From NCBI GenBank assembly GCA_035461765.1, contig DATHUY010000068.1, positions 1-54,477 on the forward strand: a stretch of 54,477 nt of DNA, written 5' to 3'. Within the stretch, counting starts at the first letter, position 1; each line of letters opens with the position of its first letter. This document shows, piece by piece, positions 13,771 to 54,477 of this stretch. The notes below the pieces were generated by a model. It made no database searches and was not told the origin of the DNA. It was given only the letters and a program-made list of their open reading frames with translations. Source of the stretch: Longimicrobiales bacterium (GTDB lineage Bacteria > Gemmatimonadota > Gemmatimonadetes > Longimicrobiales > RSA9). The position numbers and the translations under genes are program-made.

Positions 13771-13799
13771 TTGTTCGGGAGGTCGCACGCTGGTAGATT
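13771..13799 (+). promoter_or_regulatory. Promoter of the c-di-AMP riboswitch transcript
   Basis: A -35 TTGTTC (13771-13776) and -10 TAGATT (13794-13799) are spaced by 17 bases, predicting a start near 13806. That is about 25 bases before the riboswitch core. The 5' end of the RNA would carry a short hairpin (GAAGGT/ACCTTC, about 13806-13823). Confidence 0.55.
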
Positions 13800-13829
13800 G
13801 GTAGACGAAGGTGCAAGACCTTCGACAGC

Positions 13830-13945
13830 AGCAATGCCGAACGCGCTCGTCGCGCGGCGGGGGAACCGATTTGCACGGGGTGTATCCGGCGTCCGCCGGA
13901 GGGAGACTTCCTTCTCCTAACCCGTCAGCTAACCTCGCAGGCGAA
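13830..13945 (+). promoter_or_regulatory. Cyclic di-AMP riboswitch (ydaO-yuaA class) aptamer
   Basis: The conserved blocks of the ydaO-yuaA family appear in the right order. They are TGCCGAAC (about 13835), GGGGGAACC (13859-13867), GGGGTGTATCC (13877-13887) followed by hairpin TCCGGC-GTCC-GCCGGA, and a GGAG...CTCC hairpin. The signature 3' block CCCGTCAGCTAACCTCGCAGG comes last (13921-13941). The order and hairpins match the published T. tengcongensis and B. subtilis ydaO RNAs. The closing P1 helix is short here (GCC with GGC plus wobble). Known members bind c-di-AMP and usually turn genes off. It precedes an unknown gene and a tandem Usp gene, and no c-di-AMP synthase or phosphodiesterase is in the window. 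Confidence 0.92.
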
Positions 13946-13955
13946 AAAAGGAAGT

Positions 13956-14057
13956 GCGGAGCGCCCGCTCCGCCCTCTCGTGAAGCCAGCGCTTCACAGC
14001 GGCTTCATCGCCTGTAATACCCCGTCAGACGCGCGCGCCTCCGGCCGGAGAGGGAGG
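13956..14057 (+). promoter_or_regulatory. Putative riboswitch expression platform with alternative hairpins and anti-SD
   Basis: Downstream of the aptamer, GCGGAGC/GCTCCGC (13956-13962 with 13967-13973) forms one hairpin. GTGAAGC/GCTTCAC (13980-13986 with 13991-13997) forms a second. TGAAGCC (13981-13987) can instead pair with GGCTTCA (14001-14007), so these two structures exclude each other. Finally, CCTCC (14038-14042) is the exact complement of the Shine-Dalgarno GGAGG (14053-14057). No U-tract follows any hairpin, so translational control (or Rho-dependent control) is more likely than intrinsic termination. This is read from base pairing only. Confidence 0.5.
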
Positions 14058-14063
14058 TGTGAT

Positions 14064-14327
14064 GTGGATCGTATTCTACTGATAAGCGGAGATATGGTCA
14101 GCAGCGCGGAGACGCTGCGCCGTCGCGTGCTGCGGTTCACCGGCTCACGTCGGGCGACCCGCATGATCATTGGGCGCATCGAAGCGGCGCGTCGGCTCGG
14201 TCAGGTCATGTCGTGCATGGTGCTTCCGCGCGATGTCACGTCGGATGCGGACTATGGTGATGAGCAGGGCTGGGATGTACGTGTCAGCTATGCAGCGGCC
14301 GCGGGCCAGGGAGGTCGACGTGCATGA
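14064..14327 (+). CDS. Unknown 87-residue protein under the c-di-AMP riboswitch
   Basis: A small basic protein starting at GTG 14064, with GGGAGG six bases upstream. It begins with a short beta-like VDRILLISGDMV segment followed by Arg-rich amphipathic helices (ETLRRRVLRF, IIGRIEAARRLGQVM) and an acidic turn (SDADYGDEQGWD). No family is recognised and there is no membrane span. An in-frame ATG at 13980 would lengthen it by 28 residues, but that region is the riboswitch expression platform. It overlaps the next gene by eight bases, implying coupled translation. It could be a regulator of, or partner for, the Usp protein; nothing in the sequence proves this. Confidence 0.55.
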   Translation: MDRILLISGDMVSSAETLRRRVLRFTGSRRATRMIIGRIEAARRLGQVMSCMVLPRDVTSDADYGDEQGWDVRVSYAAAAGQGGRRA

Positions 14328-15072
14328 TCTGATCGCACAGCAGAACATCGCGCCGCCCGCCGCGCACCGGGTTCTCGCCCTGACGGGTGGCGCTCCGCCG
14401 GAGCGGCTTCTCGAGCTTGCCCGGTGCAGCACGCCGCGCGGGGCACGCCTGGAGCTGTTCGCTCTGCACGCGGACGCGGCGGCCCCGGTGGAGGGAGCCG
14501 ACTCTCTGCTGGGCGGCGCCGTTCGCGTCGAGCAGCCGAGTGTCCGCGAGGTGCTGCGTGCGCTGCACGATACGCGGGCGGATGCCGTGGTCCTCGGCTA
14601 TCCCGATCATGCGCGTGGTCGCAGCGCATTCACCGACATCGTGGAGCGGGCGACTGCGGCCGCGTCGGTCGACGTCATTGTGTGCGTCGACCGGCATGAG
14701 CGGCCGTGGCGCCGGGTGCTGGTCCCCTACCTGTACGGCCCGCTGGACAGCGGCGCCCTCGGCGTCGCCCGTCGGCTCGCGCGGACCGGCGACGCCGAGG
14801 TCACCGTCCTTCACGTCGTGGAGCCCGCGGGTGAAGACGACGATGCCGTGCAGCCGCTCCGCACGCGCATCGATGGCTGCAACCTCAAGGTCGTCACCGC
14901 AGGCGACCCGGTCAGTGCGGCAGCGGAGGAAGCGCGACGCGGTTACGACCTGATCGTGCTGGGCGGTCGCGATCGCCTGGTGCAGGGCCGGTATTTCACC
15001 ATGCGTCAGCAGCGCCTGCTGCTGACAACGGACGCGACGCTCGTCATCGTTCACTCCGGCCGGCAGAACTGA
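14320..15072 (+). CDS. Tandem universal stress protein (UspA-like) domain protein
   Basis: A 250-residue protein with two UspA-like alpha/beta domains, about residues 15-125 and 128-247. The second is clearer: RRVLVPYLYGPLDSGALGVA, VTVLHVVEP and YDLIVLGGRDR before a basic loop and TDATLVIVHS. Usp domains bind ATP or AMP and are found fused to, or beside, cation antiporters and amino acid permeases; no transporter is present here. The start is GTG 14320 with AGGGAGG five bases upstream, inside the end of the preceding gene. Position behind a c-di-AMP riboswitch suggests an osmotic, potassium or envelope-stress role. Confidence 0.8.
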   Translation: MHDLIAQQNIAPPAAHRVLALTGGAPPERLLELARCSTPRGARLELFALHADAAAPVEGADSLLGGAVRVEQPSVREVLRALHDTRADAVVLGYPDHARGRSAFTDIVERATAAASVDVIVCVDRHERPWRRVLVPYLYGPLDSGALGVARRLARTGDAEVTVLHVVEPAGEDDDAVQPLRTRIDGCNLKVVTAGDPVSAAAEEARRGYDLIVLGGRDRLVQGRYFTMRQQRLLLTTDATLVIVHSGRQN

Positions 15073-15141: not shown

Positions 15142-15225
15142 GCCCGGGTGGCGGAATGGCATACGCAGTCGACTTAAAATCGACGGCCTCAAAAGGGCAT
15201 GTGGGTTCGACCCCCACCCCGGGCA
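15142..15225 (+). tRNA. tRNA-Leu (anticodon TAA)
   Basis: A class II tRNA of 84 bases with a long variable arm. The acceptor stem pairs 15142-15148 (GCCCGGG) with 15218-15224, and the discriminator is A15225. The anticodon stem GTCGA/TCGAC closes loop CTTAAAA with anticodon TAA at 15175-15177, reading UUA/UUG leucine codons. The T-arm is GTGGG-TTCGACC-CCCAC. CCA is not encoded. Confidence 0.97.
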
Positions 15226-15285: not shown

Positions 15286-15627
15286 ATGAGCACGGCCATC
15301 ATGCTGCTCGCCGTGGCGGGCGTGATCGCGGTCCTGCTGCGCCTGCTGCGCTCGCTGTTTGCGACGCTGCGCGGTGGCGTGGATGTGTTCCTGGCGCACG
15401 ATGTCGCGGACACGCGCGCGCAGCGCGGTGACCTGACGGGTGTGGATGACGCGAAGGCGGCCGCGGCGGTCGCGCGTCGGCGACGCCTGTTCGCGTTGGG
15501 CACTGCATCCCTGTGGATCGGGTTACTCATCGTGCCGATGCTCACGCCGTGGCCGTCGCTCCTGTATGCCACGTACTCGCTCCTCTGGCTGCTCCCGCGC
15601 GCGCCGCGTCACGCACCACGCGCATGA
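15286..15627 (+). CDS. Small membrane protein, unknown function
   Basis: A 113-residue protein with a hydrophobic N-terminus (about residues 3-25) and a central cytoplasmic-looking charged stretch (VDDAKAAAAVARRRR). Two further hydrophobic segments follow (about 70-86 and 90-103), and the tail is basic. No family recognised. It overlaps rnz by four bases (ATGA), so the two are probably translated together. No clear Shine-Dalgarno sequence precedes ATG 15286. Confidence 0.6.
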   Translation: MSTAIMLLAVAGVIAVLLRLLRSLFATLRGGVDVFLAHDVADTRAQRGDLTGVDDAKAAAAVARRRRLFALGTASLWIGLLIVPMLTPWPSLLYATYSLLWLLPRAPRHAPRA

Positions 15628-54268: not shown

Positions 54269-54477
54269 GGGGCCGATCCGGATTCGACGTGTTTGGTGAA
54301 GTCGAAGCAGCGTGCCGAGGTGGTCGTTACCTCGTTAATCAGCGACAACAGTCACAACTGCCAACAATCAACTGGCACTGGCTGCGTAAGTAACCCTTAC
54401 GCGCCCGTTTCCTGAGAGGCCGGGCCTCGAGGCGTTTCAGGGAGCGTCGCTCAAATCGGGCTGGTCCATGGGAGCTG
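54269..54477 (+). ncRNA. ssrA: Transfer-messenger RNA (tmRNA), 3' end beyond the window
   Basis: The 5' end GGGGCCGATCCGGATTCGACG (54269 on, quoted to 20 of its bases as GGGGCCGATCCGGATTCGAC) is the conserved tRNA-like half of tmRNA. An open reading frame ending ANNQLALAA-stop (codons 54360-54386, TAA 54387-54389) is the proteolysis tag; LALAA is the usual ClpXP/ClpAP degron. The resume codon is either GCC 54360 or ACA 54354. The latter follows AGTC as the E. coli resume codon does, which would add two Thr residues. Pseudoknot sequence follows. The 3' half is cut off by the window end. Confidence 0.95.

Follow-up and report, generated by a model that had tools for sequence, protein, structure and literature searches.

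The window, as the 54,477-nucleotide stretch of Longimicrobiales DNA analysed here is called throughout, carries a short cassette that runs from a promoter-like element through a riboswitch of the c-di-AMP (ydaO/yuaA) class to two overlapping open reading frames, the first for a small basic protein and the second for a universal stress protein (Usp) (Table 1). Riboswitches of this class, RF00379 in Rfam, usually control K+ transporters, permeases and cell-wall hydrolases. Here the aptamer is the same, complete and scored well above the gathering threshold, but it precedes a small soluble protein assigned to no known family, followed by what appears to be a free Usp tail, with no transporter or hydrolase gene adjacent. 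The initial annotation had drawn attention to these unusual targets, and they are indeed set apart from the ordinary targets found behind the same RNA in eight relatives.

Table 1. Features of the cassette, in positions of the window
Feature	Position	Strand	Basis or remark
Sigma-70-like promoter TTGTTC-17-TAGATT	13771..13799	+	Read from sequence; 17-nt spacing kept in G001, G005 and G006
5'-terminal hairpin CGAAGGU-gcaag-ACCUUCG	13806..13824	+	Between presumed transcription start and aptamer
c-di-AMP (ydaO/yuaA) riboswitch aptamer	13825..13958	+	RF00379, 86.4 bits, full length, sole genomic copy
Expression platform (leader, possible Shine-Dalgarno-sequestering hairpin)	13959..14063	+	CCTCC 14038-14042 with GGAGG 14053-14057
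87-aa small basic protein, no known family, GTG start	14064..14327	+	Homologues in G001, G005 and G006; Ka/Ks; AF2 model
250-aa tandem Usp protein, probably of detached antiporter-tail type, GTG start	14320..15072	+	PF00582; tree; Ka/Ks

The riboswitch and its leader

The RF00379 covariance model aligns over its entire length (model positions 1-134 of 134) with an E value of 8e-19 and a score far above the gathering score of 38, and on this match the RNA is certainly a member of the known riboswitch class, as the initial annotation had held on finding all of the conserved aptamer blocks between 13830 and 13945. The single copy was established by a scan of the whole host genome (4.68 Mb), and scores of 80-86 bits are reached in all four genomes of the host's family that bear the cassette, the other three being G001, G005 and G006. 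The host genome encodes a diadenylate cyclase (PF02457), so the host can make the ligand.

The elements upstream of the aptamer are less sharply defined. The promoter hexamers (TTGTTC at 13771-13776, TAGATT at 13794-13799) are weak relative to consensus, falling below the threshold of a consensus promoter scan that did not list them, but the 17-nt spacing on which they were first proposed recurs by eye at the equivalent place in all three relatives (TTGTCG/TAGATT in G001, TTTTCC/TATAAT in G005, TTGCTC/TACTGT in G006), with a perfect TATAAT as the -10 element of G005. The hairpin that would lie at the 5' end of the transcript has counterparts of other sequence at the equivalent position in the three relatives, with a folding energy below that of most mononucleotide shuffles in the window and G001 only, and a role as a stabiliser of the mRNA 5' end is possible.

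In known riboswitches of the ydaO class, ligand binding lowers expression. A terminator scan saw no intrinsic terminator-like site on the + strand of the leader, and translational control is therefore the more likely mode. Folding predicts the CCTCC/GGAGG hairpin both with and without the aptamer, so that no switch is predicted; in G001 the two sequence blocks are kept and the predicted fold is not. In a free fold the aptamer core ACGGGGU pairs instead with a downstream ACCCCGU; this pairing was discarded, as it is not kept in the G001 sequence. By analogy with the known switches, high c-di-AMP would lower expression of the cassette, most likely at translation.

The small protein and its Usp partner

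The 87-codon reading frame, whose tabulated coordinates include the stop codon, lies behind a good Shine-Dalgarno sequence (GGGAGG, 14052-14057) and is conserved as a protein in three further genomes. Its Ka/Ks is about 0.35 against G001 and 0.24-0.54 over the comparisons with homologues, and 39 of its 71 differences from G001 fall at third codon positions (17/15/39). Residues R3, L5, I7, G9, S14, L18, TGS26-28, T32, R33, I35, RI38-39, A42, R44, G46, S50, W70, V72 and SY75-76 are common to all four homologues, and include the conserved motif TGS..TR.I..RI. The earlier description of the protein as lacking a known family holds against Pfam and PHROG, where none of the four homologues has a match, and against NCBIfam, where the window protein has none. 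An AF2 model built from three sequences has a beta-alpha-alpha-beta-beta arrangement at pLDDT 76. The closest structures to this model (best Foldseek E 1.2; best VIA-align Z 4.7, for the ThermoDBP-related 4psl) are not meaningful fold relatives, and three PDB chains with sequence matches at E 0.1-0.9, two of them artificial repeat proteins, were likewise rejected.

The Usp gene begins within the end of the small reading frame, with an overlap of 8 nt at its GTG (14320); the overlap is again 8 nt in G001, where the start is ATG, and is 4 nt (ATGA) in G005. Judged from this retained overlap the two genes are translationally coupled, as had been proposed. The Usp frame has a Ka/Ks of 0.17 against G001, with differences of 42/31/128 by codon position, and by these substitution patterns both genes are under purifying selection. 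Of the two Usp units claimed for the product, the second is recognized by Pfam on its own (PF00582 at residues 130-174, E 8e-7, 30.2 bits against a cut-off of 24), and the first is inferred from alignment with the G005 homologue, which scores 75.3 bits with three stretches over the cut-off. An AF2 model of the window protein (pLDDT 49) was too poor for use.

The affinities of this Usp protein lie with transporters. When it was compared with 41 relatives, a single match outside the family reached E 1e-6, namely the cytoplasmic, C-terminal Usp tail of a CPA2 cation/proton antiporter in G037 (PF00999 plus PF00582), with which it aligns at 27% over 241 aa and the G005 homologue at 28% over 269 aa (E 8e-24). 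The G037 gene is likewise situated behind RF00379; the window protein, by contrast, is free-standing and is preceded by the 87-aa protein in place of a membrane-anchored one of 155 aa, and a search for an Na_H_Exchanger membrane domain in it returned only PF00582. A profile built from the three family Usp proteins finds chiefly the tails of APC permeases (proteins of ~750-800 aa), along with some free tandem Usps. In the tree, the three family proteins and the G037 CPA2 tail form a clade (99/99) that is nested in a clade of transporter tails (100/100), apart from the free Usps. The initial view of the protein as a generic stress-type Usp is not borne out by this grouping, and on the simplest reading of the sequences the gene derives from an antiporter tail that became detached. 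The change may instead have run the other way, by fusion of a Usp to an antiporter, and as the tree contains a single close CPA2 tail, that of G037, on a long branch of 1.67, its direction is not proved. A search of the rest of the genome for a membrane partner that might have split off found antiporters, none of them particularly near to the membrane part of the G037 protein; those without a Usp tail in G000, G001 and G005 (411-459 aa) are 26-28% identical to it.

In Staphylococcus aureus the Usp domain of KdpD is a c-di-AMP receptor (PMC4686210, PMC8214093), which ties a domain of this family to both K+ homeostasis and c-di-AMP. The window protein differs in having no histidine kinase, and the KdpD-type c-di-AMP motif (A/G/C)xSxSx2N(Y/F) (PMC8214093) is absent from the Usp domains. 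The ATP motif G-x2-G-x9-G(S/T) is also absent from the Usp proteins of the window, G001 and G005. Because both motifs are lacking, direct ligand binding by the Usp protein is not predicted.

Distribution of the cassette and targets in related genomes

RF00379 is an uncommon RNA in the class, present in 12 of 345 genomes. In the host's family the riboswitch occurs in four of 12 genomes and the small protein in the same four of 12, directly behind the riboswitch each time, a coincidence expected once in 495 under random assignment of genomes that are, through shared descent, non-independent. The small protein has no match at E 1e-4 in the 391 other genomes of a 395-genome phylum sample; 15 extra matches from a profile search of the class (E 0.001-0.01) are short, some with internal stops, and were taken as chance. 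The Usp gene is less constant. The initial annotation had raised the question of whether the small gene always sits between a ydaO RNA and a Usp gene, and it does so in only three of the four; in G006 an MBL hydrolase gene comes directly after the small gene, and no close Usp was found in that genome (85% complete). Since the small gene stands alone there, riboswitch and small protein are the core of the cassette, and the small protein can do without the Usp tail.

The cassette occupies one locus, after rpe in the window, in G001 and, one gene further, in G006, and in all four genomes it precedes a conserved 113-aa reading frame and/or a ribonuclease-Z-like MBL gene. Within the reach of the contigs, the eight riboswitch-less genomes of the family have no homologue of the small or Usp gene before the ribonuclease-Z-like gene. 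By its place next to rpe and/or the ribonuclease-Z-like gene, the cassette is inherited at a single locus. Contigs homologous to the window are found in the Gemmatimonadetes MAGs SH-MAG3 and MnB_13 and place the host in the Gemmatimonadota. As for its surroundings, a tRNA-Leu (TAA) gene at 15142-15225 is directly behind the Usp gene, and in riboswitch-less G003, G008 and G009 a tRNA-Leu(TAA) lies upstream of the same ribonuclease-Z-like gene with no cassette. The 113-aa frame (15286-15627) looks membrane-like, is kept through most of the family and has only a sub-threshold Pfam match (DUF6950). A tmRNA gene at 54269-54477 is cut by the end of the window.

Eight further genomes of the class, from other families, have RF00379 before CPA2 antiporters (G037, G293, G015, G051), APC-superfamily permeases (G041, G209, G063) or an M23-like peptidase (G119). 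Pfam was used to check the targets in G037 (PF00999 with a Usp region at the C terminus) and in G041 (AA_permease_2); those of the other relatives were named from sequence, the antiporters also by BLAST similarity. Antiporters, permeases and peptidases of these kinds are ordinary c-di-AMP targets (review PMC7266159). In a tree of the aptamers, those of the host's family group with the CPA2-linked ones and a single APC-linked aptamer, set against the remaining APC and M23 aptamers at 100/100, and are not resolved as one group. Two further observations concern these relatives. In G037 the gene for the ~155-aa membrane-anchored protein lies between riboswitch and antiporter, and G293 looks similar; this protein would be a second small unannotated product of c-di-AMP riboswitch operons in the phylum. 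G209 has the best RF00379 match in the class (91.2 bits), and PF02457 diadenylate cyclase was not found in its genome, which is 92% complete.

Proposed control in trans and its alternatives

The explanation that fits best, which taken as a whole we consider moderately probable, is that the small protein and a Usp of detached antiporter-tail origin are encoded in a two-gene operon under the control of a c-di-AMP riboswitch, with products that may act in trans. The ancestral unit would have consisted of the riboswitch, perhaps a small upstream gene, and a CPA2-Usp antiporter; in the host's family the membrane part would have been lost, the soluble Usp tail kept as a free protein and a different small protein installed as the first gene. 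With expression lowered at high c-di-AMP, most likely at translation, a fall in c-di-AMP under low K+ or osmotic upshift might allow the small protein to be made, together with the free Usp tail in genomes that have it, and these might then act on a transporter of K+/cations or osmolytes whose gene lies elsewhere, the last two steps being the least certain. Because the Usp groups with a riboswitch-controlled CPA2 tail in a relative, the link to transporters is an evolutionary one, although no transporter is adjacent; the genome encodes several antiporters, of which some have no Usp tail, and no split partner is singled out among them. Judged by descent and by the genes that this RNA class accompanies, the likeliest role of the cassette would lie in K+/ion homeostasis, possibly through action in trans on an antiporter.

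Other readings start from the same genes. The initial annotation had suggested a stress module. On such a reading the free tandem Usp would bind nucleotides and work on its own as a stress protein controlled by c-di-AMP, partnered by the small protein; the coupling of the two genes and the binding of c-di-AMP by some Usp domains, as in KdpD, fit this proposal, but it is rather unlikely given that both nucleotide motifs are missing, that other S. aureus Usp proteins did not bind c-di-AMP (PMC4686210), that the small protein occurs without the Usp in G006 and that the Usp has its affinity with transporter tails and not with free Usps. Should the antiporter simply have been lost, the small protein and Usp tail could be relics in a decaying remnant and the riboswitch a survivor by inertia. 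Such decay would account for a Usp that is a partial relative of a transporter, for its absence from G006 and for the absence of the whole cassette from eight family members, yet it is improbable in view of the purifying selection on both genes (Ka/Ks against G001 of 0.35 for the small gene and 0.17 for the Usp gene), the start-stop overlap kept in three genomes and the strong riboswitch scores in all four. It is more improbable still, to the point of being hardly credible, that the small frame is chiefly a translated leader which opens the Usp start and yields no functional protein: in three genomes the small frame runs 8 or 4 nt past the Usp start, as a coupling device would require, but the TGS..TR.I..RI motif is conserved as amino acids, Ka/Ks stays between 0.24 and 0.54, and the frame is kept in G006 where no Usp gene follows.

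In sum, the locus joins a riboswitch of known class to a new regulon that is confined to the host's family, in which the small protein is the constant partner and the probable antiporter tail the usual second gene. Our literature search found no link between Gemmatimonadetes and c-di-AMP riboswitches, and the combination of small protein and detached antiporter tail is new within the reach of that search, which did not extend to the primary lists of ydaO-controlled genes, where a ydaO-Usp association may already be recorded. More tentatively, the small TGS-motif protein could be a new c-di-AMP effector, a soluble protein made at low c-di-AMP that, with or without the Usp tail, acts in trans to control ion transporters; were this so, a riboswitch that was ancestrally over an antiporter would now control a diffusible antiporter regulator. 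Riboswitch regulons are a proven route to the roles of unannotated proteins, and here a well-understood switch marks a protein family that has no annotation, while the apparent antiporter-tail ancestry of its Usp partner supplies a concrete first hypothesis, K+ or osmotic control in trans. The cassette would exemplify a riboswitch kept in place while a complete transporter gave way to soluble parts as its target, and it suggests that the second messenger c-di-AMP can control a loose regulator besides the transporter itself.
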